A stretch of DNA of 46,081 nucleotides from a virus. Both the position numbers and the translations under genes were made by a program. The stretch spans positions 1 to 46,081 of IMG/VR virus record IMGVR_UViG_3300020472_000053; one strand, given 5' to 3'. Below the pieces are notes generated by a model. That model was not told the DNA's origin. It saw only the letters and a list, made by a program, of their open reading frames with translations, and searched no databases. Below, in pieces: positions 2,980 to 45,851 of this stretch. Each line of letters starts with the position of its first letter. Positions within the stretch are counted from its first letter, which is position 1.

Positions 2980-3651
2980 GTGGCAGAATCGTTAGTCAAG
3001 AAAATTACAATGAATGAGGCCAAACAGAAGTTTGGTAACTTGGCAATGAACAATCATTACCTTGTTCATTTCTCTTCATTAAAATCAACTATAATGAGGT
3101 ATCTTGAGCGTAGAACTGGTTTTGATGATATGAAAGAGTTTATAGCAAGAGATGCTGGAATTCTTTGTGCAGATGCATCATTACCTGCTAGTGCATTTGC
3201 AACTGGTGAAGTAAAGGATAATTTTATGGGTGTCCCGCAAGAGTTTGCTCATACAAGATTGTATACAGATATTGATTTTACTTTTTACGTTGATAAAAAT
3301 TATACTATGCTGAGATTTTTTGAAGGATGGATGGATTATATTACAAGTGGTGCTTATGGAACTGGTCTTAATGAGAGTGTTAAACCTTTTTATAGAAGAT
3401 TGAAGTATCCAGATGATTATAAAGTAGATTCAATGACAATTACAAAATTTGAAAGGGATTATGATAATGAGATACAATATCAATTTATAAATGCGTTCCC
3501 TAAATCTATTACACCTGTTCCTGTTACTTATGGTGCTGCAGAGTTGTTAAAAGTATCTGTTAGTTTTAATTATGACAGATATATAATGAAAAGATTGAAT
3601 CATCATGAATGGAAAGATCTCTTTACTGGTTGGTTTGATGATTTATTCTAA
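2980..3651 (+). CDS. Tail-tube-fold protein, probable gp54-like tube initiator
   Basis: The protein has 223 aa. The central part (residues 61-121: LCADASLPASAFATGEVKDN, then TDIDFTFYVDKNYTMLRFFEGWMDYI) follows the pattern of the gp19/gp54 tail-tube family: a conserved Leu-Pro turn, a G-V-P-Q loop, a strand pair and the FFEGW motif. In T4, gp54 caps the baseplate with gp48 and starts tube polymerisation. Here it is the first gene of the rightward block, opposite gp48 and just before gp26. The GTG at 2980 lacks a clear ribosome-binding site; ATG at 3010 (MNEAKQKFG) is an alternative start. It could instead be another tube-related protein, so the gp54 name is an inference. Confidence 0.6.
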   Translation: MAESLVKKITMNEAKQKFGNLAMNNHYLVHFSSLKSTIMRYLERRTGFDDMKEFIARDAGILCADASLPASAFATGEVKDNFMGVPQEFAHTRLYTDIDFTFYVDKNYTMLRFFEGWMDYITSGAYGTGLNESVKPFYRRLKYPDDYKVDSMTITKFERDYDNEIQYQFINAFPKSITPVPVTYGAAELLKVSVSFNYDRYIMKRLNHHEWKDLFTGWFDDLF

Positions 3652-3684: not shown

Positions 3685-4410
3685 ATGCCTTTACCAAAAA
3701 TTAATACACCAACTTATGAATTGGTTCTTCCTTCTAATAATAAGAAGGTTAAATATCGTCCTTTTCTTGTTAGAGAAGAGAAAATTCTTGTAATGGCTTT
3801 AGAATCTGAAGATATGTCTCAGATTACTAATTCTATTATACAGATACTTACTGATTGTATTCTTACAAAAGGTATTGATGTTGCAAGTTTGGCAACGTTT
3901 GATATTGAATATTTGTTTTTAAATATTCGTGCAAAATCTGTGGGTGAATCTGTAGAGGTAAATGTTACTTGTCCAGATGATAATAGAACTACAGTTGAAA
4001 TAGATGTTAATATTGATTCTATTAAAGTTAAGAAGAATAGAAAACATAAAGATACTGTAAAACTTGATGATACACTTTCATTAAAATTAAAGTATCCTTC
4101 TGTAGCACAATTTATTGATAATAATTTTGAGGTTTCTGATGATACTGGAGATAGTGTTGCTAAATCACTTAGCATGATTACTTCCTGTATGGATATGATT
4201 TATAATGATGAAGAAAGTTGGGATGCATCAGAGTCTACTACTAAAGAATTGACAGAGTTTATTGAACAATTAAACACTAAACAATTTAAAGAGATTGAAA
4301 AGTTTTTTGAGACAATGCCTAAACTTTCTCATAAACTTAAGGTAACAAATCCAAAGACTGGTGTTGAATCTGAAGTATTACTGGAGGGACTAGCAAGTTT
4401 TTTCAGTTAG
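3685..4410 (+). CDS. 26: gp26-like baseplate hub assembly protein (putative tail assembly chaperone)
   Basis: The protein has 241 aa, against about 208 in T4 gp26. The start MPLPKINTPTYELVLPSNNKKVKYRPFLVREEKILVMA is characteristic of the T4 gp26 family. It continues with IQILTDCI, IEYLFLNIRAKSVGE and a Cys-containing hairpin (VNVTCPDDNRTT). The C-terminal half is acidic and helical. T4 gp26 is needed to assemble the baseplate hub. By position, just before tape-measure-like genes and followed by a short ORF reachable by -1 frameshifting, it takes the place of lambda gpG, the short form of a tail assembly chaperone. Its last codons run through a slippery T6C sequence at 4398-4404. Confidence 0.83.
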   Translation: MPLPKINTPTYELVLPSNNKKVKYRPFLVREEKILVMALESEDMSQITNSIIQILTDCILTKGIDVASLATFDIEYLFLNIRAKSVGESVEVNVTCPDDNRTTVEIDVNIDSIKVKKNRKHKDTVKLDDTLSLKLKYPSVAQFIDNNFEVSDDTGDSVAKSLSMITSCMDMIYNDEESWDASESTTKELTEFIEQLNTKQFKEIEKFFETMPKLSHKLKVTNPKTGVESEVLLEGLASFFS

Positions 4411-4440
4411 GTATGGCTCATACTAGTCTTGAGTCATACT
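4398..4440 (+). promoter_or_regulatory. Programmed -1 ribosomal frameshift signal
   Basis: A heptamer T TTT TTC (4398-4404) lies in the exact X XXY YYZ register of the gp26 frame. Five bases later an 11-bp stem starts: 4410-4420 pairs with 4430-4440 (two G-U pairs) around a 9-nt loop, TACTAGTCT. The gp26 stop codon TAG is at 4408-4410. Slipping back one base opens the frame of the following ORF without an intervening stop. The predicted fusion has 240 gp26 residues plus 61 further residues, 301 in all. The ATG of the downstream ORF (4413-4415) is buried in the stem, which would disfavour independent initiation. Confidence 0.72.
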
Positions 4441-4589
4441 ATAAGATTAACTTTGCTTTGATTCAACATCATAAATATTCATTAACTGAGCTAGAGAATA
4501 TGATACCTTGGGAAAGGGAAATTTATGTAACTCTACTAAAACAACATATAGAAGAGGAAAATTTAAAACAACAACAAAGTGGCAGTTAA
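4413..4589 (+). CDS. Short ORF after gp26, T-like extension of the tail assembly chaperone (gp51-like position)
   Basis: From its own ATG the protein has 58 aa, beginning MAHTSLESYYKINF and ending LKQQQSGS. It contains YSLTELENMIPWEREIYVTL, an aromatic and acidic helical pattern common in the downstream halves of tail assembly chaperones (lambda gpT-like). It lies in the -1 frame of gp26, and the frame is open from the slippery site at 4398, so the likely product is a gp26-fusion of 301 aa. The end overlaps the GTG of the tape-measure-like gene by 11 bases, suggesting coupling. In T4, gp51 also acts in hub assembly, but I cannot prove homology from this short sequence. No strong ribosome-binding site precedes the ATG. 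Confidence 0.72.
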   Translation: MAHTSLESYYKINFALIQHHKYSLTELENMIPWEREIYVTLLKQHIEEENLKQQQSGS

Positions 4590-6159
4590 GGGATTAAAAT
4601 TAAATATTACTAGTAAATCTTTTGGTGGTGGATCTTCTATTCCCAAAATGGATTTTGGTGGATCTAAGTTAGGAATTCAACCAGCAAAAATTAAATCTTC
4701 AAGTCTTTTAGATACTACAGATACTCTTGTAGGTAAAGGTGATGTTGCTTCACATGAAAATATGAAGCAGGAGACTAATAAGATTCATGCAACTATTAGT
4801 CACCTTACTACATTTGTAAGAAAGAATCGTGGTAAAATAAATGATAATACAGTAAAGATAGATCAGAACGAACAAAATATTAAAATTAATGCTAAGAAGA
4901 TTACTCTTCTAAAGAATGTAATTAAAGCACAAGAACCTTTTGGTGGAAATGAAGATCCATTAGCAGAAGTAAATAATACTCTCGAAGAAATTGGTGTTTT
5001 ATTGGCTTTGGATTTTTCACGTCGTGAAGAAATAGCAAAGGAGGAATTGGCAAATCAAAGAGAAGAGAAGGCAGAAAGAAAAAGATCTATGAAGGAGAGG
5101 ATGATAGAAGGGTTGAAGGGTGTTGGACGGAAAGGAATGGGTGCAGCAAAAGGTGCTGCAGGTAGTGTTGGTGGAGCTGCAGCAAAACCCGTTACTGGTA
5201 TATTTGATCAAATTAAAGAAGTAGTAGCACTTTTAGGAACTGCAGTTTTTGCTAATAATGCTATTGATTGGTTAAAGGATGAGAAGAATCAGGAAAAGGT
5301 TGGTAATTTCTTTAAGTTTATAGCAAAACATTGGAAATGGGTATTGGGTGCTGTTGCTGGTGTTGCTGCTTTAACTGCTTTAGGTGGACTTGTTAGTATA
5401 ATAGGTGGTCTTGGTGCTGCTCTTGGAATATTTGCAAATCCACTTGCATGGAAAATTATGGCTGCTATTGCCATAGGATATGGTGTATGGAAAGGTGGTC
5501 GATGGATTCATAAAAAGTTTGTTGGTGGTGAGGAATTTGTAGATGCTCATGCAGAGAATAATAAAAAGAAAGAAAAATTACATGAATTAGGAATAACTAA
5601 TACTGGAATGATTACTGGTCCAGGAGGTAAAAGATTAATAAGTGTTGAAGAACATGGAACTGAGGCACAGAAAGCAGCATGGAGAGATTTTAAGAATGAG
5701 CAGATTAGAATTGATGATATTAGGGATGAAATGCGAGATGAAATGGAGGCAGAGAAAAAGGCAGCCAGAGAAGAGTGGAAAGAAAAGGCAATGGCAAGTA
5801 AAGTTGGTGATGAAAAAGTAGATTGGAAATATTGGAATAAAAAATGGGATGAAGATTGGGCTAAGCAACAGGATGCTATTAGAGCAAAACATGAACAAAG
5901 AATAGTTTCTGAAGCAACAACTCAAGCTGAAAGAATAAAAATTAATACAAAATCAGGTATTGATGAACAAGCTGCAAGATTGAATCAAGCACCAGAAGAA
6001 GATGCATTTATTGATATTGATTTGGGTCGTATTAGAAAGGATGGTTCTCCTATAACTTCAGGTAATCAAGATGATGTAAATGAAGTTGAAATTATTAGTC
6101 CTACTAATAAGTTAAATCCATATATGGAAGAAACTCCAGAACTTCTTGGGATAGTATAA
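4579..6159 (+). CDS. Tape-measure-like tail protein (gp29 position)
   Basis: The protein has 526 aa and starts at a GTG inside the end of the preceding ORF. The order is: a Gly/Ser-rich N-terminus with GLKLNITSKSFGGG; a coiled-coil region at about 55-115; a very charged helix near 145-175; an Ala/Gly-rich linker; a strongly hydrophobic region at about 210-310 (EVVALLGTAVFANN, WVLGAVAGVAALTALGGLVS, LAWKIMAAIAIGYGVW); then a long charged helix region rich in Glu and Lys. Hydrophobic segments inside a long helical protein directly after chaperone-type genes are the hallmark of tail tape measures, and T4 gp29 (590 aa) holds this role. The hydrophobic region may insert in the host membrane during DNA entry. 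Tape-measure identity is inferred from architecture and order. Confidence 0.68.
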   Translation: MAVKGLKLNITSKSFGGGSSIPKMDFGGSKLGIQPAKIKSSSLLDTTDTLVGKGDVASHENMKQETNKIHATISHLTTFVRKNRGKINDNTVKIDQNEQNIKINAKKITLLKNVIKAQEPFGGNEDPLAEVNNTLEEIGVLLALDFSRREEIAKEELANQREEKAERKRSMKERMIEGLKGVGRKGMGAAKGAAGSVGGAAAKPVTGIFDQIKEVVALLGTAVFANNAIDWLKDEKNQEKVGNFFKFIAKHWKWVLGAVAGVAALTALGGLVSIIGGLGAALGIFANPLAWKIMAAIAIGYGVWKGGRWIHKKFVGGEEFVDAHAENNKKKEKLHELGITNTGMITGPGGKRLISVEEHGTEAQKAAWRDFKNEQIRIDDIRDEMRDEMEAEKKAAREEWKEKAMASKVGDEKVDWKYWNKKWDEDWAKQQDAIRAKHEQRIVSEATTQAERIKINTKSGIDEQAARLNQAPEEDAFIDIDLGRIRKDGSPITSGNQDDVNEVEIISPTNKLNPYMEETPELLGIV

Positions 6160-21600: not shown

Positions 21601-22193
21601 ATATGGATGGAAATACTCAAAAAAGTTATATTGAAATTAGTGGAGACATTACTCCCTTTACTGGAGGATCAACTAGTAATATTACAATAAAGATAAGACC
21701 TATGCGTTTAAAATCAAGTTCTAGAGATGTAACAAAGTTATATAATTATAATCCATATCCTCTTTATTTTGTTGCAAAGTTAGGAGATAATGCTAATATT
21801 AATAATATATCAATAAAAGAAAAAATTGGGGATTTTACTAGAACTATTTCTCCAATATATGCTTTAGGTAATAATGTTCAACTTACTAATGCCAGTAATA
21901 GAGCAGAAACTGATGGATCAGCACCTACTAATTTTTTAGAAATTGATAGGTTATCATCTGCAATAATAGATAATCAAAATACACAAAGATTAAGAACATC
22001 TGAATTAAAAGATGTCTTTTATGTTGGTGAAAATTCAACCAAAAAGGTTGATATGACTAAAGTATTTGGTCCAAATAAAATTACTATATTACCAACTAAT
22101 AATAATATTGAAGCAACATTTTTTACTGCAAAAAAAATAAAAGGAGTTGGTAATGGTAATATACAAATGAGTGTTAATTATGGTGAGCAATAA
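18606..22193 (+). CDS. Giant virion structural protein, paralogue of the previous gene
   Basis: The protein has 1195 aa and starts three bases after the 1370-aa gene. Shared with that protein are LLGVNRAELQLSLFSDVSSYGLDNEEF, RVFRYQPGRISGFTFGVRAS, WKIEFGWYGAIGCRFYAYIPVSSGEARWV and YGSSYYIDGGDEGT. Unique parts include an N-terminal basic segment (GGKDVKIGHDKRPISII), a Cys-containing loop (VQRCKACPGFGHVYTPGLKTG) and a C-terminal region with NITIKIRPMRLKSSSRDVTKLYNYNPYPLYF. Its stop overlaps the ATG of the next gene by one base. Two related proteins side by side suggest duplicated, perhaps alternative or hetero-oligomeric, baseplate or fibre components. Confidence 0.67.
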   Translation: MTNGGKDVKIGHDKRPISIIPDNKQPLYSYATGQKLTDEYGNELLVETETYNLKDQGKDRSTPIVFPSEEDTYNRIEYTTILNNYVISWSAGTNLVTFAAPADAAGIVTTGDKLSGVGIPDGTIFTGGRSGSGGYRISNNLEGNVGSRTIDVLRRTNAPKKSDPAWSIEEQFAETSEVSSTLLGVNRAELQLSLFSDVSSYGLDNEEFIFTQFSTGISAGQWDQRVNEIYGKRYLGKVIEETSESSIKLGALPVSHTFPFPPATAELGWYNETFYNQYIKFINLGNDLYDWYSGPNGAAYPSTWTNQFLNRATVDVDNSIVRYKASTEASFAAVDVWTETWRSLLKQELKDPITNEPFLFASILDLSETFKDNYPTATDIRPGYADARTSYSLLESRRVFRYQPGRISGFTFGVRASTESVSGYNIEWGIGNPTDHYIFKIRQGNLFIVRRSTVALNASALERSGLSLTDQTYEVSGDPLDKNPITGDPQKYYTIEVPQDNFNGDPLNGNGPSGYGIIAKNVTMWKIEFGWYGAIGCRFYAYIPVSSGEARWVVVHTFVIENSLNQPCLQDSYFKLRYSLHIFNTSDIRTPQYLYKYGSSYYIDGGDEGTQQINSSSSGNKIVNSVNEETLLGMTCKDLMLNSVGQEIENKRSLFPISATITSDCLAEIRVQRCKACPGFGHVYTPGLKTGVNGRYVNVAFLDATRLVAIDPVSGLGTSFHKNDDGAKFIAPTIWNAYAKNLSSPDGDGGYIIAQTWGYSGSGGARAPRNIADDSLYYDSISNTPVSIPSDVNGSSVYVHQVRLSNWNDAIVSSATPLTGSEITIQFLNPDPRDDYSHYADFAIGVTNIVPDIDPATPTVLDGWNLSGISTTILPDENILFDYHSHNYSSINIDGVEVGETHGGQNPNPNMEIDFRIPTVGGIEGGTCSKVVITVQNPEDITNLEQLTTNPETGISGKYYLRKLGAFPSGILFTNGEVVIESNGVLITTLTFFGEPISYMDGNTQKSYIEISGDITPFTGGSTSNITIKIRPMRLKSSSRDVTKLYNYNPYPLYFVAKLGDNANINNISIKEKIGDFTRTISPIYALGNNVQLTNASNRAETDGSAPTNFLEIDRLSSAIIDNQNTQRLRTSELKDVFYVGENSTKKVDMTKVFGPNKITILPTNNNIEATFFTAKKIKGVGNGNIQMSVNYGEQ
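20233..20264 (+). repeat. 32-nt exact repeat, copy 2 (in the 1195-aa gene)
   Basis: Second copy of the run at 16454-16485. The two lie 3.8 kb apart in direct orientation, in genes that otherwise differ strongly at the DNA level. Confidence 0.85.
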
Positions 22194-24628
22194 TGGCATT
22201 AACTAATCCAATAATATTCGGTCTAGAAGTAACAAGGAATTTAGCTGATGTAAAAGATAATAATATTGCATTACAATCCTTAACTTTAGATATAAAGGAT
22301 TTAGATGTTATTCGTGGTAGTTTTTCTGAAGGTGCTTCTGAAAGTGATTGGCTTAGTTTTTCTGGACTTAGTGTTCCAATTTATAAGCAGATTAGAAGAT
22401 TTTATCAAGATTCAGAAATTTCTGAAAATTATCTACAGAAAAGAGCTGGACATAATATAATATTATTTGGTAATTTGAATATTAATGGTGCATTTGATGG
22501 TAATGCTATAAGATATCGATATATTAAAGGATTGGGAACTGGAACTAGATCTGTTGCTTTAGCAGATATATCTACTTCTAGAATTAGTTCTTGGAGTTCT
22601 TCTGCGAATCCAGTTACTGCAAGTTCTCCTATTTCATATGGGGCACAAGTAAGGGTATCTACTGGTGGAAAATTACAATTTGGTACTCAGTCTGGTGTAA
22701 CTGGAAATAGATTACAAACAACTTTAGTTCCAGAAGCTAAAGAATTTGATTCAGAATTTCCTACTCATAAAATACAAACTAATATTGGTGGTCAAACAGT
22801 AAATCTTTATGCTATGAAAGGAATTCCAGTAGTTTGGACTGGATTTTTTAGAAATTTAAATGCAGACATATATTTAAGTTCTCTTACTCAGAACACTAAG
22901 GCAAGTTGGAGAATAGAACAAACTGATGATTCAAGTAGAAGATCAACTATTGAAAATTTTGGTGGCACTCATACTTATGTTAGATATAGATCTGTAGTCT
23001 CAAAAGAAAGATTTATTAAATTTTATTATAATCCAGATAAAATTACTCAGATTTATCTTAATTCAGCAGGTATTACTGAATTGCCTATTGTTAAGTTTAA
23101 TAATGCAACTATATTGAGTTTTGCTTATAATGAATTAACTACATTTCCAGATTTTACTGATATTGCACCAAATTTAATTCAGTTAACTCTCCATAAAAAT
23201 CCATTTATATACTCTGAAATTTCTACAGAACGAAAACTAAATTCAGCTGTAATGAATAAAATTCCTACTACTGTAACTACATTTGCGATGGGTAGTTGTT
23301 TTTATAAACTTACAGATAGTGATGTTATAGCAAATCGTCTTCCTAATCTTAATTATTTAAATCTCCAGAACAGTTGGGGTAGACGATTAATGAATGAAAC
23401 TAATGATGAACTCCCAAATGTACCTAGTTCTATAACTGATTATAGAATGTATAATAATAATTTTAAAACATTTGATACTAGTCCATCTGGTAGTAATATT
23501 AATATAATGAATGCAACTGCTTTAACTAGACTTGAGTTACATTATAATAGAAGTCTTACTTCTCCAGTAACATTTGCAATTTCTAGTAATGTTATTAATT
23601 ATGTCAATATAGGTGTTACATCATTAGTATTACCTGATATGTCAGGAAAAACTTCTTTAGGAACATTCTATGCTTATAGTTCTGGAAGTTTTGGATCATT
23701 ATTTTCTGGCACTAATTATAAGTTTAATAATTGTAGTAATTTAGGAACTCTCTACATGTATAATTCTTGGGGAACTACTGGTCCTTTTCCAAGATTTACT
23801 AATCCTAAACTAAATTATATTGATTTACGATATTGTAGTATGTCTGGTGGTGGAATGAATACAGATGGATCTACTGATACTTCATATGTACTTCCAGAAT
23901 TAACATTCCAAAATACAGGAGATTTGCAGAATTTTTATTGGTTTAGTCGTGGTAGTAGTTCAATAATTGCTAATATACATCCAAACGTATTTACATATAC
24001 ACCAAAGCTATATCATGTTTATTGGATTACATGGTATAGAACACCAGGACCACTACCTAATCTTAATGGTTGTCCTGCTTTAACATACTGTAGATTTCCC
24101 TATAATAATTTTAGTGGAAATATGCCAGATTTTAATGGTAATCCTAATATCTATTATGTAGAATTTCAATATAATTCTCTTACTAATGATATTCCTGCTC
24201 TTAAGAATTTAAGTAATTTACAATATTTAAGATGTTATAATAATAATTTTACTGGATTGAAAGCATTTGAAAATTTAGTAAACCTACGATATTTTTGGTG
24301 TCATAATAATCAAATCACTGGAGAGATACCAACGTTTGCAGGATGTCCTAGAATGTATTATTTGGTTATGTATAATAATCAATTTACTTCTTATAAGAAA
24401 GGTGCATTTACAGGTATAACTCAGATAAGATATTTAACACTTCAGAATAATAGTTTACCACAATCATCTATTAATAATATATTAGAAGATTTATATGATA
24501 ATTATCAATCTTCTAAACGTGGTGGAGTTACTATAGATCTTCGTGGTAATGCTGCACCTATTAATGGAGCTGCTAATGAATATATACAAATATTAGAAAC
24601 AAAAGGTTGGGACATTAGACACGCTTAA
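22193..24628 (+). CDS. Leucine-rich-repeat virion protein, putative receptor-binding
   Basis: The protein has 811 aa. Residues 1-290 form a structural part (MALTNPIIFGLEVTRNLADVKDN, YGAQVRVSTGGKLQFG). From about 290 to 790 come irregular leucine-rich repeats with the N-x-F/L-x-G-x-x-P pattern: LSFAYNELTTFPDF, CRFPYNNFSGNMPDF, VEFQYNSLTNDIPAL, CYNNNFTGLKAF, CHNNQITGEIPTF, LTLQNNSLPQSS. A C-terminal cap (ILEDLYDNYQSS, then TIDLRGNAAPINGAANEYIQILETKGWDI) closes the solenoid as in bacterial LRR proteins. LRR surfaces bind proteins or glycans, so host recognition is the likely role. There is no signal peptide, consistent with a virion rather than a secreted protein. The start overlaps the previous stop (TAATG). 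Confidence 0.75.
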   Translation: MALTNPIIFGLEVTRNLADVKDNNIALQSLTLDIKDLDVIRGSFSEGASESDWLSFSGLSVPIYKQIRRFYQDSEISENYLQKRAGHNIILFGNLNINGAFDGNAIRYRYIKGLGTGTRSVALADISTSRISSWSSSANPVTASSPISYGAQVRVSTGGKLQFGTQSGVTGNRLQTTLVPEAKEFDSEFPTHKIQTNIGGQTVNLYAMKGIPVVWTGFFRNLNADIYLSSLTQNTKASWRIEQTDDSSRRSTIENFGGTHTYVRYRSVVSKERFIKFYYNPDKITQIYLNSAGITELPIVKFNNATILSFAYNELTTFPDFTDIAPNLIQLTLHKNPFIYSEISTERKLNSAVMNKIPTTVTTFAMGSCFYKLTDSDVIANRLPNLNYLNLQNSWGRRLMNETNDELPNVPSSITDYRMYNNNFKTFDTSPSGSNINIMNATALTRLELHYNRSLTSPVTFAISSNVINYVNIGVTSLVLPDMSGKTSLGTFYAYSSGSFGSLFSGTNYKFNNCSNLGTLYMYNSWGTTGPFPRFTNPKLNYIDLRYCSMSGGGMNTDGSTDTSYVLPELTFQNTGDLQNFYWFSRGSSSIIANIHPNVFTYTPKLYHVYWITWYRTPGPLPNLNGCPALTYCRFPYNNFSGNMPDFNGNPNIYYVEFQYNSLTNDIPALKNLSNLQYLRCYNNNFTGLKAFENLVNLRYFWCHNNQITGEIPTFAGCPRMYYLVMYNNQFTSYKKGAFTGITQIRYLTLQNNSLPQSSINNILEDLYDNYQSSKRGGVTIDLRGNAAPINGAANEYIQILETKGWDIRHA

Positions 24629-24630
24629 AT

Positions 24631-25566
24631 ATGGCAATTCCAAATCAGGGTTATAGACAAGATTTAAATTTAGAAGAAACTCCTGCAGATGATACTGCAT
24701 TGAATAATATTGGTGGTGCTGGTATAGCAGGAGATTTAAGAATTATACAAAATAATTTAAGAAATATAGGAACTGTAGGTTATAGTTCTCTTACTGATGG
24801 ATTTTTTACTTTTGATTCAGATTATTGTTTTACTAATGATGATCCTATTACAGTTAGTCAAACAATAACATTTAGTGGGGAAGGGATTATTGGAGTATCA
24901 TCTACTTATTATGTTTGTAATTCTAATGCAGTAAATAAATTTAAACTTTCATTACGTCCTTCAACACATTCATCTGGATTAGCGATAGTAGGATTTGCAG
25001 GAACTTGTGATGTTAGGTTTGATTTTAGTAGAAGTGAAGCAGTAACAAGAGAGAATCTTGTTAATTATGTGATGCCAGATAATCTTATGGATGATGATTG
25101 GTCTATTCTTGCTGGTAATAACGATCTTAATGGTATGTTTGATGTAACACAAACTAATACAGAAAATATAAATTATGGTATTACTAAAAAATATAGAGGT
25201 AATGAGGATACTTCTGCAACTAAAGATGTAAAATTTGAAGGTATTGTTAAAGTTGAAGATCCATTAGCATTTAATGATAGTGCAACTGATTTGGCTGATG
25301 CTAAGTCTCCTGGAGTATTCATTCTTGGTACTCGTGCATTTTCAAGTGACAATAATCCTTGGGAAGAATTAGGAAGTGCTGATGGGACAGGATATTTACA
25401 AACTGGGAGTAATGAAGTAGCTATAGGTGAGTTAAATTTTGCTAATAGTATAACAATTGAGGGAATATCTAAAGTATCTGAATCATTAGGTGGTGTTACA
25501 TCATATACTCATAAGATGCCAGTAGTTATTAATGGAGAAACTTATTATATTTTATTAAAACAATAA
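24631..25566 (+). CDS. Tail-fibre-associated structural protein
   Basis: The protein has 311 aa. The N-terminal 50 residues (QDLNLEETPADDTALNNIGGAG, then DLRIIQNNLRNIG) share a pattern with the opposite-strand 735-aa protein (NNLSDVGSAETSLNNLLNG, then DLDAIRNIW), which suggests a common attachment module. The middle is beta-rich (FSGEGIIGVSSTYYVCNSNAVNKFKLSLRP). The C-terminus carries VKFEGIVKVEDPLAFNDSATDL, SPGVFILGTRAFSSDNNPWEEL and MPVVINGETYYILLKQ. Its stop codon abuts the stop codon of the convergent gene with no bases between and no terminator. The function is not recognised beyond probable virion attachment. Confidence 0.65.
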   Translation: MAIPNQGYRQDLNLEETPADDTALNNIGGAGIAGDLRIIQNNLRNIGTVGYSSLTDGFFTFDSDYCFTNDDPITVSQTITFSGEGIIGVSSTYYVCNSNAVNKFKLSLRPSTHSSGLAIVGFAGTCDVRFDFSRSEAVTRENLVNYVMPDNLMDDDWSILAGNNDLNGMFDVTQTNTENINYGITKKYRGNEDTSATKDVKFEGIVKVEDPLAFNDSATDLADAKSPGVFILGTRAFSSDNNPWEELGSADGTGYLQTGSNEVAIGELNFANSITIEGISKVSESLGGVTSYTHKMPVVINGETYYILLKQ

Positions 25567-28765: not shown

Positions 28766-31700
28766 ATGCCTCTTAATAAGCTGGAAAACTTCATAAAGAA
28801 TACTGAGGGTCGTATTCTTTATGTCAATCCCAATGATCTTGATTCTACAGATTCAGTATCAAACCAGGGAAATTCATTAACTCAACCCTTTAAGACGATT
28901 CAACGAGCATTATTAGAATCTGCTAGATTTTCTTATTTGAGAGGTAATGATAATGATATTATAGAAAAGACGACAGTTCTTGTATATCCTGGAGAACATG
29001 TAATAGATAATAGACCAGGATTTGGGATTAGGGTAGATCCTGGTAATTCTAGTGCAGCACAAGTAATATCTCCTTCAGGGACTGTTTCTCCTGCTACTAC
29101 TTTATCATTAACATTATCATCTAATTTTGATTTAACACAAGAAGATAATATTCTTTATAAGTTTAATAGTGTTCACGGTGGTGTAATGATTCCTCGTGGT
29201 ACATCTATTGTAGGTCTCGACTTAAGAAAGACTAAAGTTAAACCAAAGTATGTTCCAAACCCAACAGACTCTAGTGTTCCTGATAGTGCTATCTTTAGAG
29301 TAACTGGTGCATGTTACTTCTGGCAATTCTCTATATTTGATGGAGATGAAAGTGGTATAGTATATACAGATAATTCAAATTTTACTTTAGCAAATAGATC
29401 AAAACCAACATTCTCACACCACAAATTAACTTGTTTTGAATATGCAGATGGTGTAAATGATCCTGCAGGATATACTAGAACTGACTTAGCAATGTATTAT
29501 GCTAAGTTATCTAATGCTTATGGTGTTGATTCTGGTAGGGATATTGTAGCTGCGGATACTTATCCTACAAATCTATCTGGATTTGCTCCTCAAAGACCTG
29601 AATATGAAATTGTTGGTGCATTTGCATCAGATCCAGTTAAAATATTAACTGCTCAATCTGGTGATGGAAATACACCTAGTTCAATTATTACAATTACAAC
29701 GGTTACTCCTCATAAATTAAATGCAGGAACTCCTATAAAGATTAAAAACATTACTGAGAAAGCATATAATATTTCAACTAAGGTTGCTAATGTAATTAGT
29801 GATACTCAATTTACTTATGTTCTACCAACCGTTTCACCAACTTTAGCTACTCAACCATTTGCATCAAATGGAACAGTAACTATAGAAACTGATAATGTTG
29901 ATGGTGCGTCTCCATACATCTTTAACTGCTCCATGCGTTCTGTATGGGGTATGAATGGTATGCTTGCTGACGGTAACAGAGCAACTGGATTTAAATCAAT
30001 GGTTGTTGCTCAGTTCACTGGTATATCATTGCAGAAAGATGATAGAGCATTTGTAAAATATGATAAGACTTCTCGTTCTTATCAGAGTATGAATATTGGT
30101 AATGTTGTTAGAGGATCTGCTCTAGCATCAGAATCATCATCTCTTGATGCAGGTAAAGTTTATCATTTAGATTCACAAGCTGTTTATAGAAAAGGTTGGG
30201 GAACTAGTCATATTAAGATTACTAATGATGCAATTCTTCAGATAGTATCAGTATTTGCTATTGGTTATCAACAACATTTTGATGTAAGAAGTGGTGGTGA
30301 TGCTTCAATTACAAACTCTAACTCTAACTTTGGACAATTATCATTATCATCTGATGGATTTAAGAAAAAGGCATTTGATAAAGATAATACTGCTTTCGTT
30401 ACTAGTGTTATTACCCCAAGAGCAATAACATCAAGTGAAACTAATATTGATTGGGCAGCAATTGATGTTGGTGTTACTACTGCTGTTGGTATATCAAGTC
30501 ATCTTTATATACATGGATTTAATAACCAAGATGATCCACCTCCAACACTTCTTTTAGGATACCGTTTAGGTGCTAAAGTAAATGATGAAATTACTGTAAA
30601 AGTATTTGATGTTCCTGGTAATGTGGATATTGTTCGTACAGCACCAGTTTATATGGTAGATAATATTGTTGGTGGTGCAACAACATTATCTCAGGGAACA
30701 ACATCAAGTTTTAAAAAATATGTTGTTCAATCTGCAATAGTTGATAATAAGCTTAACTTAGGGGCAAACTCTATTAAAACTGGTGAAAAGATACGAGTTT
30801 TTAGTGATAATGCAGATCTTCCTGAGAATTTAGAGGATAATATAATCTATTATGCTATAGATCAAGGAAATAATGCTGAGATTAAAGTAGCATCTAATAA
30901 AACAAATGCTCAGAATGGAACTGCTATTACAATAACTGGTGGATCCAGTTTATATGTTGAAAGTAGAGTTCATGATAAAGATTCTGGTGATATAGGACAT
31001 CCTATTCAATGGGATCCTAATAATAATCATTGGTATATGCATACTAGTGATGATAATACCATTTATTCTGGTATAAGCACTTATGGTGTTGGTGGTAATA
31101 TTGGTCTTGGTGCAAAAACACAAGTAACATATATTTCAAGAAAGGATGATCCACGAGGTCTTGATGAAAAAGTCTATAAACTACGTGTTGTAGTTCCTAG
31201 AGAGACTGTTAATGGTAAAGATCCAGAGGAATCATTTATTATTCAGGAATCTAGTTCTACAGGAGCTATAGCAAATTCTGATTTTACATTAACAACCCTA
31301 TCTCCAAATGCAGATAAGAAATATGACACTAATAAAAATTTAAGACTTATTGAGAAATGTACTGTATCTGCGTATACGGTTACTGTATATACAGAACTTC
31401 CTCATAACTTAAAAGTTGGTGAACATATTGTTGTTTATAATGTAACTGATACTACAAATACTGGAGGGTTGGATGATCTTGGATATAATGGAACATTTGC
31501 AGTAACAAGTATTACTGATGAAAAAACATTTACATATAAAACAACTGATGTAGATGGAGTAACACATACAGTTCCTAGCACATCTACTAATGATACATCT
31601 TCTAGAACAACAGCATCACCTAGATTTGAGAGGAATGATAATAGATCAAACTTCTATGTTTATAGAAATGAAACAATAGTACCATATATTGAAGGTATTC

Positions 31701-34700
31701 AAGATGGTATCTATCATATATTTGTTATAAAAGCAGATAATACTATTACTGAAGAGTTTACTGATCTTAAGTATAGTCAGAGTGTTGTTGACCTTTATCC
31801 TCAAAGAGATAGAGATAATATTGAGGATAATCCTCAAGCAGCAAAATCTTTTGCTAAGAGAACTCCTATAGGTGATGTTGCCACTAATGAACTTAAGAAG
31901 AGTATAACTAGAGAATCTGTAGACCAATTCCTAACAGATTTTGGTACAGGTCTTAGGATTAGTAATGTATCAACAACTTCTACTCTTGCTACTCTTACAT
32001 TTGATAGAAGACATAATTTAGGAGGACTTGTAACTGGTACTATTACACCTGGTTCTGGTTATACAAATGGAACTTATTATAATGTTAGAATTTTATCTGG
32101 TAACCAAGCAGGTTCTTGGTCTGGAGCACTTGCAAAAGTAGTTGTATCTGGTGGTCAGGTTACATCTACTGAGATAACATCTGGTGGTTCTGGATATGCT
32201 GCTGGAACATATTATTTTGAACAAGTAAAGATTGGTAATGGTAATGCAGATGCAAGATTTGTTGTTGCTGCTAGTGGTATTTCATATACTAGCGATGAGG
32301 CAAATGTATTACAAATAACAGGTCTTAGTGTTGCTTCTGATTGGCATGGAAGAATTACTAGTATTCCAACATCAACTACAGTTGGTCTTGCCAGAACATC
32401 TGGTGATCCTATACCTTTAGTAGGGCAATATGCGTTAAACCTTGGTCCTTCTCAGGTAGTAAGTAGTGTTTATGAATCCACATCAGGAATTAGTACATTT
32501 ACAACTACTACAGGTCATGGATTAGTTGCTGGATCTAAATTCCGAGTGGTAGATTCTAGTAATAACTGGTTAGGTGATTTTAACGTTAAGGAAGAATTAA
32601 CTTCTGTTAAATTTAGTGCACTTACTAGTCCTAGATTAGTTTCTAATGTATCTTCTGGTAGAATATTACGTCATGGAATGGATTCTGCTGACGCAATATC
32701 AGATAAAACAGATGAAAATCTTGGTGCAAGAGGTTTACCTTTATATGATGGTGAAAGCTTTAAACTTATTGCTGATATAACCACTGGAACTTCTATTAGA
32801 ATAGATGCTGCAAATTCTGGTATTGGAACTATAACCAGACTACCATTAGGATCTTATATACAAGTTGGTAGTGAAATAATGAGAGTTACTAGCTCTACTT
32901 TAGGTGCTAGTGAGGATATTTCTGTTCTTCGTGGTGCATTAGGAACTCTTATACAAAGTCATTCTGCTAATGATTTAATTAGAAAAGTTAAACCATTACC
33001 TGTTGAATTCCGTAGACCATCTATTATTCGTGCTTCTGGTCATACGTTTGAATATGTTGGTTATGGACCAGGTAACTATTCAACTGGTCTACCTCAGGTT
33101 CAAGTTAGAACCTTATCTGAAAGAGAAGACTTCTTATCACAATCACAAGAAAGATCTTGTGGAACAGTTGTTTATACTGGTATGAATAGTAGGGGTGACT
33201 TCTTTATTGGTAATAAGAGAGTTAGTTCTGCAACTGGTCAAGAGCAAACATTTGATGCTCCTATTCCTACTGTCACAGGTGAAGATCCTTCAAGGTCATC
33301 AGTTATCTTTGATGAAGTTGTTGTTAAAGAAAGATTGATTGTTGAGGGTGGTAGAACTAATAAGATTCTATCTCAGTTTGATGGTCCAGTAACTTTCAAT
33401 AAGGAAGTTAAGATTAATGATAGTCTTACTGTTGTTGGTGATTTAAAATTAAATGCTGCTGTTACTATTCTTGATGATACCGATGCTATTGTTCCTGGTT
33501 CTTCTCCAGAACTTCGTAGTAAGGATCATGGTTGCTTAGTATTAGAAGGTGGAATGGGTGTCGAGAAGAGGTTAAATGTAGGTGGTGCAACTTGGATTAG
33601 TGATACTCTTAATATAACTAATGGATCTGTAATACTAGAAGCAGGTGTTTCTAATGAAGGTTATCGGATTGATTCTGGTAATGACATTTTGATGAGTCTT
33701 TATAAAGGTGATGGTTATGCTGATGATCCTATAATTCTCGGTGTAAAAGATGGTAAGAGACTTGTTATTGGTGCCAATGCGACTGGTCTTGTTGAGATCA
33801 GAGATTCTGTAACTGGTGATTTTAGAGCAGCATTTACTCAAAATGAGCAGAGATTGTACTGGGATGGATATGAAAAATTCAGAACAGAACCTTCTGGTGT
33901 TTTAGTTACTGGAATCACGACTACTTCAGATTTAAGTGTAACTGGTGTTACTACGATTGGTGGTGCTATTGATGCTGGATCAAATGCTACTATTGATGGT
34001 TGGATTGCTATTGGTGGAACAGCAACGTTTGATTCATCAGCAATGATTGATACAAACACTAGAGGTCATGGTTGGCTTGCTATTGGATCTACTGCAACCT
34101 TTGATGGAAATGTTACTGCTCCAAAATTCATAGGTGATCTTCAAGGTAATGCTGATAGTGCTACTACTATAACTGGTAGTGGATTTGATCTCAATACTTC
34201 AGGTATTGTTACTTGTGGATTACTTCATGCTACTAATACTGGTAATTTTGATGGTGCTTATGTTGGTTATGGTCTTAGTGTTGTTGGAAGTGCTTGGGTT
34301 AGCAATAATTTCCGAGTCGAAGGAACTAGCACAACATTAAATACTACTTTAAGTGCTAATGGTACAACCATAACTGGTACTCTTGATGTTAATGGTCAAG
34401 CAGATATTGATAATATAAACATTGATGGAAATACAATTAATACTGCTAGTGGAAACCTAACAATTGATTCTGCTGGTGGAACAACAACTATTAGCGATAT
34501 TTTGAGTGTTGGTGGTAACACAACTGTGAATGGACAGTTAGATGTAACTGGTAATATTAGAGCATTTACTTCTGATATTAGACTTAAGACTGATATTGAA
34601 CCAATTACTAATGCATTATCAAAGGTTGACTCTTTAAATGGTTTCACCTATAATCATAACGAAGTTGCTGCTGCACTAGGATTTGATACTGAGACTAGAT

Positions 34701-34873
34701 ACGCTGGTGTATCTGCTCAAGAAGTTGAGAAAGTTCTTCCAGAAGTAGTTTCTCCTGCTCCTGTTGATGAGAATTATAAGACAGTTCAATACGAACATAT
34801 TGTCCCACTTCTAATTGAAGCAATCAAAGAACTTAAAGCAGAGGTCGAGGAACTAAAGAAACATAAACATTAA
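28766..34873 (+). CDS. Giant tail fibre with C-terminal S74 self-cleaving chaperone
   Basis: This 2035-aa protein is the largest gene of the window. The N-terminus (RILYVNPNDLDSTDSVSNQGNSLTQPFKTIQRALLESARFSY, then TTVLVYPGEHVI) is a beta-helix-type opening widespread in cyanophage fibres. The middle has FFIGNKRVSSATGQEQTFDAPIP and fibre repeats of the type GITTTSDLSVTGVTTIGGAIDA and GWLAIGSTATFDGNVTAP. The last 100 residues, from S1936, are a peptidase S74 intramolecular chaperone: SDIRLKTDIEPITNALSKVD, then YAGVSAQEVEKVLPEVV and YEHIVPLLIEAIKELKAEVEELKKHKH. In that family the trimeric domain folds the fibre and then cuts itself off just before the conserved Ser. Mature length would be about 1935 aa. 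Confidence 0.87.
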   Translation: MPLNKLENFIKNTEGRILYVNPNDLDSTDSVSNQGNSLTQPFKTIQRALLESARFSYLRGNDNDIIEKTTVLVYPGEHVIDNRPGFGIRVDPGNSSAAQVISPSGTVSPATTLSLTLSSNFDLTQEDNILYKFNSVHGGVMIPRGTSIVGLDLRKTKVKPKYVPNPTDSSVPDSAIFRVTGACYFWQFSIFDGDESGIVYTDNSNFTLANRSKPTFSHHKLTCFEYADGVNDPAGYTRTDLAMYYAKLSNAYGVDSGRDIVAADTYPTNLSGFAPQRPEYEIVGAFASDPVKILTAQSGDGNTPSSIITITTVTPHKLNAGTPIKIKNITEKAYNISTKVANVISDTQFTYVLPTVSPTLATQPFASNGTVTIETDNVDGASPYIFNCSMRSVWGMNGMLADGNRATGFKSMVVAQFTGISLQKDDRAFVKYDKTSRSYQSMNIGNVVRGSALASESSSLDAGKVYHLDSQAVYRKGWGTSHIKITNDAILQIVSVFAIGYQQHFDVRSGGDASITNSNSNFGQLSLSSDGFKKKAFDKDNTAFVTSVITPRAITSSETNIDWAAIDVGVTTAVGISSHLYIHGFNNQDDPPPTLLLGYRLGAKVNDEITVKVFDVPGNVDIVRTAPVYMVDNIVGGATTLSQGTTSSFKKYVVQSAIVDNKLNLGANSIKTGEKIRVFSDNADLPENLEDNIIYYAIDQGNNAEIKVASNKTNAQNGTAITITGGSSLYVESRVHDKDSGDIGHPIQWDPNNNHWYMHTSDDNTIYSGISTYGVGGNIGLGAKTQVTYISRKDDPRGLDEKVYKLRVVVPRETVNGKDPEESFIIQESSSTGAIANSDFTLTTLSPNADKKYDTNKNLRLIEKCTVSAYTVTVYTELPHNLKVGEHIVVYNVTDTTNTGGLDDLGYNGTFAVTSITDEKTFTYKTTDVDGVTHTVPSTSTNDTSSRTTASPRFERNDNRSNFYVYRNETIVPYIEGIQDGIYHIFVIKADNTITEEFTDLKYSQSVVDLYPQRDRDNIEDNPQAAKSFAKRTPIGDVATNELKKSITRESVDQFLTDFGTGLRISNVSTTSTLATLTFDRRHNLGGLVTGTITPGSGYTNGTYYNVRILSGNQAGSWSGALAKVVVSGGQVTSTEITSGGSGYAAGTYYFEQVKIGNGNADARFVVAASGISYTSDEANVLQITGLSVASDWHGRITSIPTSTTVGLARTSGDPIPLVGQYALNLGPSQVVSSVYESTSGISTFTTTTGHGLVAGSKFRVVDSSNNWLGDFNVKEELTSVKFSALTSPRLVSNVSSGRILRHGMDSADAISDKTDENLGARGLPLYDGESFKLIADITTGTSIRIDAANSGIGTITRLPLGSYIQVGSEIMRVTSSTLGASEDISVLRGALGTLIQSHSANDLIRKVKPLPVEFRRPSIIRASGHTFEYVGYGPGNYSTGLPQVQVRTLSEREDFLSQSQERSCGTVVYTGMNSRGDFFIGNKRVSSATGQEQTFDAPIPTVTGEDPSRSSVIFDEVVVKERLIVEGGRTNKILSQFDGPVTFNKEVKINDSLTVVGDLKLNAAVTILDDTDAIVPGSSPELRSKDHGCLVLEGGMGVEKRLNVGGATWISDTLNITNGSVILEAGVSNEGYRIDSGNDILMSLYKGDGYADDPIILGVKDGKRLVIGANATGLVEIRDSVTGDFRAAFTQNEQRLYWDGYEKFRTEPSGVLVTGITTTSDLSVTGVTTIGGAIDAGSNATIDGWIAIGGTATFDSSAMIDTNTRGHGWLAIGSTATFDGNVTAPKFIGDLQGNADSATTITGSGFDLNTSGIVTCGLLHATNTGNFDGAYVGYGLSVVGSAWVSNNFRVEGTSTTLNTTLSANGTTITGTLDVNGQADIDNINIDGNTINTASGNLTIDSAGGTTTISDILSVGGNTTVNGQLDVTGNIRAFTSDIRLKTDIEPITNALSKVDSLNGFTYNHNEVAAALGFDTETRYAGVSAQEVEKVLPEVVSPAPVDENYKTVQYEHIVPLLIEAIKELKAEVEELKKHKH

Positions 34874-43200: not shown

Positions 43201-43656
43201 ACTTCCACTTCATTTGATGGAAATGGTGCACTAAAGGCAAGAGCAGAATTTACAGTTCAAACTGGTGGAACTCTTTTAAAAGCTAAAGGAACAGTCGGTG
43301 CTGGTGTAACTGCTAATGTAGAAATTACCAGTGCTTACAGATCATATTCTTTATTGAAGGTTGAAACAGATTATCCTGCATGGGTAGTCATATATGTTAC
43401 TGATGCTACGAGAACTGCTGATGCTGGTAGAACTATAGATGCAGATCCTACTCCTGGATCTGGTGTGATTACTGAAGTAATTGGTACTAGTGGAGCTGCT
43501 CAAGAGTTCTTAATGACTCCAGCAGTTATTGGATGGAATAATGAATCTTCATCATCTAATCAAAGAAAAATATATGCAAAAGTTGCAAACCAAGATAGTG
43601 CAGATCGTAATATTGAATTAAAATTAACTCTACTTCCACTTGAATTAAATCCCTAA
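40288..43656 (+). CDS. Tail fibre protein with repeated beta modules
   Basis: The protein has 1122 aa. The N-terminal SDIRKTFNFRAGVQVDDDVFIVRGSRVGIGTTVPD is a standard opening of marine T4-like phage fibres. Two copies of a module are visible: YGDGSDLKLYHDGSRSYIQDD near residue 213 and FGDASDLKIYHAAADGGYNAIKDN near 331. Between them are short strand-turn repeats (VTGITTTDDLNVTGVSTLGVSTFTGAVGFGS). Further on come LDGLSDVTFGTLANDQVLKYNSSTSKWENG and SPQLGGDLDANAKMITFSD, a linker frequent in pelagic phage fibres. The C-terminal about 140 residues form a separate domain (EFTVQTGGTLLKAKGTVGAGVT...KLTLLPLELNP). No S74 domain. Its stop overlaps the next ATG by one base. Confidence 0.78.
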   Translation: MSDIRKTFNFRAGVQVDDDVFIVRGSRVGIGTTVPDKIFDVRGESKFVGLVTAQNVDFSAGISTFGDVKIGSGISMNASSGIITGKFAGDGSALTSLPTSPWTSYNQTYNGATHNSISKLTGNVGIATDLASNNFQVGANPYDLISVGVGIRSDGNIRASGVITATTFDGDLTGNVNNFRTGLSTFFGDIHLHGSTGVTSVTWDNSENSLIFKDNIKAAYGDGSDLKLYHDGSRSYIQDDISGDLRISSNDIRFRSSDDATTSFYVDHDGETQLYYNTNIKLTTSDSGVNVTGITTTDDLNVTGVSTLGVSTFTGAVGFGSTALFHDDVKAEFGDASDLKIYHAAADGGYNAIKDNALHTGGLVIGSNTLSIKSAALNLTQAVFMANERVELYHNNDKRLSTSGVGVTVYDHLDTTNAHVSGASTVGQITISSDANVTGIGSISSSGVITANISVNVASAATITATGIDVPAGIVTATTFKGALTGNVTGNATGTAGGLSGTPDITVDDVIANTVGINTAIASKQLYVYDDSNDLVRLNSNKDGAYISFVDETGVQMPYIGGRGDHLSFGTLNSGEKVRITGIGSIGIGVTIPERQFHVVGTSTVTDNAWFGGNVNIRNNLTLDGTLVAPTIQLDTLNTFNVGNKAQLHASSGITTVSKLYATGISTFMSFVSVGTTYHDQMFSVNETEESRFTITPGGAVGVGTTALGIPSGIQLHVNRDAIIKRGLGVGPITSLKSCVDFSDVVNFGGNSANVAYMLPPKVDATQKGNLTAIGGGAVTAGAVVYDTSVNQLQCWNGSAWVAQAAGGVTDLDGLSDVTFGTLANDQVLKYNSSTSKWENGTVAGGGFNNVVDDTSPQLGGDLDANAKMITFSDSSNITADNAIKFGVHGDLRLGSISGFGVISNDAANTMGLLIGNTNGASGRHVIIQGRSGQSTIVANNDGTESNAQLYCAGTKRLETKGGGINVIGITTSTSFDGNGALKARAEFTVQTGGTLLKAKGTVGAGVTANVEITSAYRSYSLLKVETDYPAWVVIYVTDATRTADAGRTIDADPTPGSGVITEVIGTSGAAQEFLMTPAVIGWNNESSSSNQRKIYAKVANQDSADRNIELKLTLLPLELNP

Positions 43657-45851
43657 TGTCAGACACTAAACGCCGCTATACTGTTGGTTTAAAAAATAGA
43701 AACGATTTAGATGATTTCTATACTCAAATGGATGAATCTACTGGAAATGATACTATTCCCAGTAGAAGTTGTCATTGTGTTCAGAGAAGACCAATTAGTA
43801 GAAATACTGAATATGAATTAACTGATGCAGAAGCAGAGGAATTAAGAAAAGATCCTAGAGTTGTATGTGTTGAAAGAGATCTATTGGAGATGGGGTGTAG
43901 TCCAGAATATAATTGGACTCAAACATCTCCTTTTAATAAAACAACAGGAGGTTTTAGTGGTTCTGATAAAAATTGGGGATTAAAAAGAGTTATTGATGGT
44001 GAAGGTGTAGCTAATTGGGGTAGTGATGGTAATCCAAGATTGATGGGTTCATCTGTTAGCACTACGAGTTCTGGTAAGAATGTCGATGTTGTAATTGTTG
44101 ATTCTCATATTAATCCAGATCATCCAGAGTTTGCAGTCAATCCTAATGGAACTGGTGGTAGTAGGGTTAATCAGATAAACTGGTTTCAGTATAAAGATGC
44201 TCTCGGATATAGTTGGCATCCATCAACATATACTTATACTGATAGTGACATGAGTAATTGGACTGCTTATGATAGCAATCATGGAACTCATGTAGCAGGA
44301 ACCGTAGCAGGAAATACTAATGGTTGGGCTCGAGATGCTAACATTTATAATATGGCATATGATGGTAATTTAGCTGGAGTATATAATTTTAGTACTGTTC
44401 TGTGGGATTATTTAAGGTATTTTCATAAGAATAAATCAATAAATCCTGTAACTGGTAGAAGAAATCCAACAATTACTAATCATAGTTGGGGGTGGAGTAG
44501 AACCATTTACCTTAATGAAGTTTTTAAGGTGCTTTATAGAGGAACAACTCTTGACTTTACTTGGGGAAGAGGCACTACAAGTAAAGCATATGCTCTGCAA
44601 ATTTTAGGTTGTAATGCTACTGTAGGATATGATAATGTTAAGGGATCATATAATAAGATTCCTGTAAGAAGTTCTGCAGGAGAGTTAGATATAGAGGATT
44701 GTATTGCAGATGGTGTAATTCTTATTGGTTCTGCTGGTAATGGTCTTAGTTCTATTCAAACTCCAGGTCATGTAGATTATAATAATCGTCTTTGGTATAA
44801 AACCTCCAGTGGAGGAACAGAAATTGAATTTGACTACGAACAAGGTCAAACTCCTAGTTCTGCTCCTGGATTTATATCTGTAGGATCTGTTAGTAGTAAG
44901 AAAGATGAATATAAATCTGTTTTTAGTAATTTTGGTTCGAGAGTAGATGTTTGGGCACCTGGAAGTGATATAATATCTCCTATTTTTAATAAAACAACCG
45001 CAGCTAATGAGAGTGGTTTGTCACCTATAATAAGTGATACGAGGGATAGTGCATATGGACTTGCTTCTGGTAGTGGAACAAGCATGGCATCACCTCAAGT
45101 AACAGGAGTTATTGCTTGTCTTGCAGAACAAGAGCAAGGATTAACACAATCAGAAGCATTACAATATCTTAACGAAACTTCTAAGACTAATATTGGAGAT
45201 ACTGGTGAAATTCAAACTTTAACTATAACTGAACATGCAGCTAACGCAGGTAATGAAGATGTAAGTTATTTTCATATTGTTCATGGTTTCTGGACAGAGA
45301 GTAATCCTGTAAATTGGCCAGCTACACTTCAAAATGGTTGTATATTAAGATTTGAATTTTCTCAGAATGGTAAAGAAACTAGAATTTTCTATTTTCAATA
45401 TCGTAACAGTCTGCCTAAGTATGTTACTTATGGTTTTGGTGGATGTAATTTTCATAGGCAAGATGGAGTCTTTACTTATAATATTCAACCAACAGATGAT
45501 GTGACTGGACAGGGTTATAAGACTTATACTTTACAATATGTTGATTATACTGGAAGAGACTATTATACTGAGGGAAGAAATTATTATGATCATTATCATG
45601 CTACAGATGAAATAACAGTAAACATTAGAGTAGAATCTATGTATGCTAATGAAGTAGCTCTATCTGGACTACAATCTACTTCAGAAACTTGGCATAGATT
45701 GGAAAATAGTACTAAAAAATATCTATTTTATAAAAAGAAAAGACCTGAAAGTGGTCAATCTCTTCCTAAATTAACACAAAAGAATCGTAATTCTACTGTT
45801 GCTGGCATTAAATATCCAAGAACAATGAAATCTTTCCATGCTCATGATTAG
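43656..45851 (+). CDS. Subtilisin-like serine protease (S8) with propeptide and C-terminal extension
   Basis: The protein has 731 aa. Residues 5-76 (RYTVGLKNRNDLDDFY...RVVCVERDLLEM) look like an inhibitor-I9-type propeptide. The catalytic triad is intact: D149 in DVVIVDSHINPDHPEF, H209 in NHGTHVAGTVAGN, S476 in GSGTSMASPQVTGVIA, with oxyanion N362 in ILIGSAGNG. The last 200 residues are a Tyr-rich beta domain (FHIVHGFWTESNPVNWP, FYFQYRNSLPKYVTYGFGG), perhaps a virion anchor or substrate binder. There is no signal peptide, so it acts inside the infected cell or as part of the virion. Being coupled to a fibre gene (ATG at 43656 overlaps its stop), it could mature fibres or attack host surface proteins; the sequence does not decide. 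Confidence 0.88.
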   Translation: MSDTKRRYTVGLKNRNDLDDFYTQMDESTGNDTIPSRSCHCVQRRPISRNTEYELTDAEAEELRKDPRVVCVERDLLEMGCSPEYNWTQTSPFNKTTGGFSGSDKNWGLKRVIDGEGVANWGSDGNPRLMGSSVSTTSSGKNVDVVIVDSHINPDHPEFAVNPNGTGGSRVNQINWFQYKDALGYSWHPSTYTYTDSDMSNWTAYDSNHGTHVAGTVAGNTNGWARDANIYNMAYDGNLAGVYNFSTVLWDYLRYFHKNKSINPVTGRRNPTITNHSWGWSRTIYLNEVFKVLYRGTTLDFTWGRGTTSKAYALQILGCNATVGYDNVKGSYNKIPVRSSAGELDIEDCIADGVILIGSAGNGLSSIQTPGHVDYNNRLWYKTSSGGTEIEFDYEQGQTPSSAPGFISVGSVSSKKDEYKSVFSNFGSRVDVWAPGSDIISPIFNKTTAANESGLSPIISDTRDSAYGLASGSGTSMASPQVTGVIACLAEQEQGLTQSEALQYLNETSKTNIGDTGEIQTLTITEHAANAGNEDVSYFHIVHGFWTESNPVNWPATLQNGCILRFEFSQNGKETRIFYFQYRNSLPKYVTYGFGGCNFHRQDGVFTYNIQPTDDVTGQGYKTYTLQYVDYTGRDYYTEGRNYYDHYHATDEITVNIRVESMYANEVALSGLQSTSETWHRLENSTKKYLFYKKKRPESGQSLPKLTQKNRNSTVAGIKYPRTMKSFHAHD

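Follow-up and report, generated by a model that had tools for sequence, protein, structure and literature searches.

The prototype of a tail assembly chaperone produced by frameshifting is the gpG/gpGT pair of phage lambda (Xu, Hendrix and Duda, 2004; reviewed in PMC5009743), and G-T frameshifting is widely conserved among phages, with T4 as the exception (PMC5009743). For the tail assembly chaperone (TAC) genes of T4-like phages, the study by Vladimirov, Gautam and Davidson (2022; Virology 566:9-15) is cited in PMC10885494 and PMC12846349; the passages concerned credit it with the recognition of separate short and fused long T4-like genes and of poly-T slip sites in TAC-N. The passage in PMC12846349 also describes a conserved −1 frameshift with a GTTTTT motif in the TAC genes of the Vandenendeviridae and Andersonviridae. 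Sullivan et al. (2010; PMC3037559) had already recorded that the N-terminal ~200 residues are absent from the gp51 proteins of cyanophages and vibriophages, and gp51 itself from phage Aeh1.

The stretch of DNA analyzed here (the window) is a virus record of 46,081 nucleotides (46 kb) from IMG/VR and belongs to a T4-like marine phage. At the end of its gp26 gene lies a compact cassette (Table 1) that very probably, as judged from sequence, directs a programmed −1 frameshift through which one gene yields its tail assembly chaperone in two lengths, TAC-N (short) and TAC-NC (long).

Table 1. Features of the frameshift cassette and its neighboring genes in the window.
Feature	Position	Strand	Evidence or remark
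Tail-tube-like gene upstream of the cassette	2980-3651	+	PF23849 Phage_TTP_2, E 1.7e-20; phrog_45 tail tube, E 8e-38
gp26, short form (TAC-N), 241 aa	3685-4410	+	PF12322 T4_baseplate, E 2.8e-71
SD-like GGAGG, ending 10 nt 5' of the heptamer; probable frameshift stimulator	4383-4387	+	
Slippery heptamer T_TTT_TTC	4398-4404	+	−1 register; sequence and T6 heptamer in 350/353 loci
−1 frame extension, predicted C-terminal domain of TAC-NC, 61 codons	4404-4589	+	elsewhere annotated 'gp51'
0-frame stop TAG, one sense codon past the heptamer	4408-4410	+	sequence; spacing common to 187/208 relatives
Downstream hairpin	4410-4440	+	4410-4420 paired with 4430-4440, loop 4421-4429
ATG of the short ORF	4413-4415	+	without an SD at usable spacing; not kept across the wider family
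526-aa protein with hydrophobic stretch, probable tape measure by position	4579-6159	+	gene order and hydropathy

The gp26 reading frame closes with the codons AGT (4396), TTT (4399), TTC (4402), AGT (4405) and TAG (4408). All base-level elements described in a first-pass annotation of this DNA are indeed present: the heptamer T TTT TTC in the correct register, a 5-nt spacer (4405-4409), the 0-frame stop in the spacer region, an 11-bp stem with a 9-nt loop (two of the pairs are G-U), the ATG of the short ORF (ORF2) within this stem, and a −1 frame that stays open for 61 codons beyond the slip. This frame runs from 4404 to a TAA codon at 4587-4589 and would give a fusion protein of 301 amino acids; the extension matches phrog_634 (E 6e-29) and the C-terminus of phrog_150 (E 6e-7). 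Among the open frames of at least 100 codons in the window, an in-register TTTTTTC occurs this one time. That annotation mentioned neither the SD-like GGAGG element nor the restriction of the stem to one clade. On the minus strand at position 25191, a TTTTTTA heptamer likewise stands near a stop and is accompanied by a −1 frame of some length; it lies opposite a gene for a 311-aa protein. Since this spurious look-alike is a product of chance, evidence from a single sequence is insufficient.

Relatives were gathered through similarity to gp26, not through the motif, and reach down to about 23% identity. This yielded 353 loci with a readable gp26 end, 208 of which are non-redundant at 90% identity. 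Shortly before the gp26 stop, 350 of the 353 loci have an in-register T6 heptamer; it lies at most six codons from the stop in 344 and eight codons upstream in six further ones (L237, L256, L257, L259, L271 and L211), where the 0-frame stop follows eight codons past the heptamer instead of one. In the three others (L095, L193 and L093; phage Kuja in two records, and K475), CTTTTT replaces the T6 heptamer and the −1 ORF is still kept; this is a weaker run, with perhaps a different slip or mechanism there. The −1 ORF is open in all 208 non-redundant loci, with a length of 55-84 codons, and in 187 of them a single codon separates the heptamer from the 0-frame stop. The last Phe codon is TTC in 188/203 loci, against a background of 31% TTC among the Phe codons of these genes. 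Because the 208-locus set demands a T6 run, the wobble T and the first TTT are found in 208/208 by construction; the expectation of 127 for the wobble T has to be read in the light of this requirement, and the fair figure is 350/353. Loci with the heptamer occur in Kyanoviridae, Sinorhizobium phage phiM7, Aeromonas phage Aeh1 and Vibrio phage V07 (Schizotequatrovirus), and also in phages of Stenotrophomonas, Acidovorax and Rhizobium. Absence of the heptamer or of the −1 frame relation from close relatives, named beforehand as grounds for giving up the proposal, was looked for, and both are kept (350/353 and 208/208).

Next to the heptamer, the relatives share an upstream element. The sequence GAGGG ends 9 nt 5' of the heptamer in 126/208 loci, and GGAGG 10 nt 5' of it in 64/208. 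The Glu codon at this SD-like site is GAG in 127 of 164 relatives, compared with a background of 29%. We considered the element as the start signal of ORF2 itself and rejected this assignment, because the share of GAG is independent of ORF2 start codons (77% in loci with such a codon and 79% in those without). An upstream hairpin in which the T run pairs with the SD-like sequence (12 bp long in the window) was likewise discarded as a conserved element, since its folding across the relatives does not exceed that of codon shuffles (z −0.05). The upstream SD-like element is not mentioned in the passages of PMC10885494 and PMC12846349 that deal with these chaperones, and it constitutes a testable feature.

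The downstream hairpin of the window has a folding energy of −14.7 kcal/mol, corresponding to a z of −3.4 when a 43-nt segment is folded and of only −1.9 with a 66-nt segment. Across the relatives, downstream folding measured against codon shuffles has a mean z of −1.88, compared with −0.37 in control coding windows; the value is −3.37 in the clade that carries the stem and −1.26 elsewhere. The exact stem of the window is distributed bimodally, with at least 9 of its 11 pairs retained in 61/208 loci, and at its exact columns the hairpin is missing from about 70% of the relatives; the S-CAM4 clade has another stem at roughly the same place. Covariation over the whole family is weak, with few clear double changes (for instance CTC/GAG to CGC/GCG), and an Rfam search returned sub-threshold chance matches only. 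The hairpin is real within the clade of the window and is not universal, and we rejected it as a general part of the cassette, the exact stem being limited to 61/208 loci. Conservation of both heptamer and stem, the latter with compensatory changes, had been put forward in the first-pass annotation as a check on its proposal; the heptamer stood up to it, the clade-specific and weakly covarying stem did not.

T4 carries genes 26 and 51 on opposite strands. When its proteins were compared with a profile of the conceptual gp26-ORF2 fusion, T4 gp51 aligned with columns 12-285 of 301, across the junction (E 3.7e-13; the best of 40 shuffled gp51 controls reached E 0.038), and its C-terminal 60 amino acids alone matched the profile of the −1 extension (E 1.8e-6). 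The N-terminal part of the fusion matches T4 gp26 (E 3e-20), which ends just past FF; these two residues are encoded by TTC TTT, so that there is no heptamer, and the −1 frame closes at once. Neither of the two domains showed a relation to T4 gp28 or gp29. By these profile matches, T4 gp51 is the full-length long form, and the 'gp51' of cyanophages corresponds only to its C-terminal domain. Where a separate gene encodes the long form, the slip site is thus missing. The earlier recasting of the T4 gp26/gp51 pair as a G/GT-type system holds for the homology (E 3e-20 and 3.7e-13) and fails for frameshifting in T4 itself.

The order tail tube, gp26, ORF2 and long protein recurs in annotated relatives. 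The 526-aa protein downstream of the cassette is probably the tape measure, as suggested by its position and its hydrophobic stretch; no family match names it as such. In a comparison with predicted viral structures, a confident AlphaFold model of gp26 (pLDDT 90.5) was similar to gp26 proteins of other phages and to a gp51 of the T4 type. A fold search of the PDB gave no significant match to gp26, with the HK97 tail chaperone 2ob9 ranked 6th (E 1.5), and sequence searches of the PDB and of NCBIfam gave no match. Because the HK97 match is non-significant, the identification as a chaperone is based on gene order, the relation to T4 and the literature, and not on structure. Three other large genes on the plus strand of the window were noted. 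One in the tail-gene region (22193-24628) encodes a protein of 811 aa that contains leucine-rich repeats (LRR_4, E 7e-15), a seemingly unusual feature in a phage; a 2035-aa protein (28766-34873) carries a Peptidase_S74 chaperone domain close to the C-terminal end (E 3e-15) and is probably a tail fiber or spike; and a 731-aa protein (43656-45851) contains a subtilase domain (Peptidase_S8, E 8e-27).

Beside the observed cassette, its conservation and the homology to gp51, we infer the occurrence of slippage, its rate and its role in tail assembly as follows. Most ribosomes would halt at the TAG codon at 4408 and release TAC-N. At T_TTT_TTC, a minority would slip back by one base, with the SD-like GGAGG (10 nt upstream) as a stimulator and, in the clade of the window, the hairpin (5 nt downstream) as another; they would then read on to position 4589 and produce the 301-aa TAC-NC with the junction ...S-F-F-Q-L-G-M-A-H... 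By analogy with gpG/gpGT of lambda, TAC-N would form a coat around the tape measure protein, and the C-terminal domain added in TAC-NC would serve to recruit subunits of the tail tube.

The ATG at 4413 allows other readings of the same region. In the clade of the window, frameshifting to TAC-NC might be accompanied by reinitiation at this codon, giving some free C-terminal domain. The ATG is kept in 78/78 of the closest readable relatives; it is missing in many sister clades, and in the window it is overlapped by the hairpin and served by no SD, so that it may have been conserved for the sake of the protein and the stem. We regard such a dual mode as unlikely. That the short ORF is simply a separate gene, reached by reinitiation two bases past the gp26 stop with no fusion made, is very unlikely, even though an ATG stands near the stop at the window's position in 98/208 relatives, where reinitiation may take place, and databases annotate the short ORF as its own gene in P-SSM2 and others. 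None of these 98 ATG codons has an SD-like 4-mer at −14 to −4. When the −1 frame was scanned from its opening to 14 codons past the slip, 59 of the 208 loci had no ATG, GTG or TTG and 89 had no ATG; S-CAM8, S-CAM4, DSL-LC03 and Aeh1 are examples of such loci, and in them the domain has been left unannotated. Independent initiation can therefore not be the general mechanism. Moreover, a separate gene would not need the heptamer to be conserved, and T4 gp51 is this very fusion. Transcriptional slippage as the source of the fusion has very little probability: on a run of six Ts the polymerase may slip in principle, but slippage usually favors longer runs, and the ribosome is indicated by the register of the codons, by the constant distance of the SD-like element and by the downstream hairpins. 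Chance or a sequencing error, for which the look-alike at 25191 might speak, is excluded for all practical purposes because the identical arrangement is conserved in hundreds of relatives, in independent contigs as well as isolate genomes.

The −1 programmed frameshift is hence our preferred reading. Conservation, the relatives that lack a start codon and the fused gp51 of T4 strongly support the earlier proposal of a 241-aa and a 301-aa form that resemble the G/GT pair. The frameshift reading accounts for the short gp51 of cyanophages and vibriophages and the missing gp51 of Aeh1, and with that provides a possible answer to the question of gp51 length raised in 2010 (PMC3037559). It also corrects hundreds of marine phage records that either miss the second half of the protein or list it as a 'baseplate hub assembly catalyst' in its own right. 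We consider it an evenly balanced proposition that frameshifting was the ancestral state of the chaperone gene in the T4 superfamily, under a three-part signal like that of dnaX (an SD-like element, the T6 heptamer and a clade-specific hairpin), T4 being a derived exception in which a second gene replaced recoding. If true, this would also explain the 'truncated' gp51 of cyanophages and vibriophages and the 'missing' gp51 of Aeh1 (PMC3037559); parts of this idea may already be contained in Vladimirov et al. (2022). The relatives collected here represent a large natural data set on the evolution and loss of frameshift signals.

The −1 signal of E. coli dnaX combines an SD-like element about 10 nt upstream, the heptamer A_AAA_AAG and a downstream hairpin, and yields a truncated protein. 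The cassette at the gp26 stop shares this layout of SD-like element, heptamer and hairpin, whereas its heptamer is a different one and its product would be extended. From gpG/gpGT of lambda, its putative analogue, it differs in the slip sequence T_TTT_TTC and in the SD-like stimulator. With the Vandenendeviridae and Andersonviridae, as these are described in the passage in PMC12846349, it has in common a −1 frame that is open throughout and a poly-T slip site in the 3'-terminal part of TAC-N, but those are other phage families with the motif GTTTTT. The short form, the separate long fused form and the poly-T slip sites credited to Vladimirov et al. (2022) in the cited passages are further points of likeness, and this kind of frameshift chaperone, including its presence in T4-like phages, is already known; the case presented here is real and well supported, and not categorically new. 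With T4 itself, the short form shares its homology to gp26 and the long form its homology to gp51 across the junction, but the long form of T4 is a separate full-length gene, whereas that of the window needs a frameshift; the window thus carries a homologue of the T4 pair and not of the T4 mode of expression.
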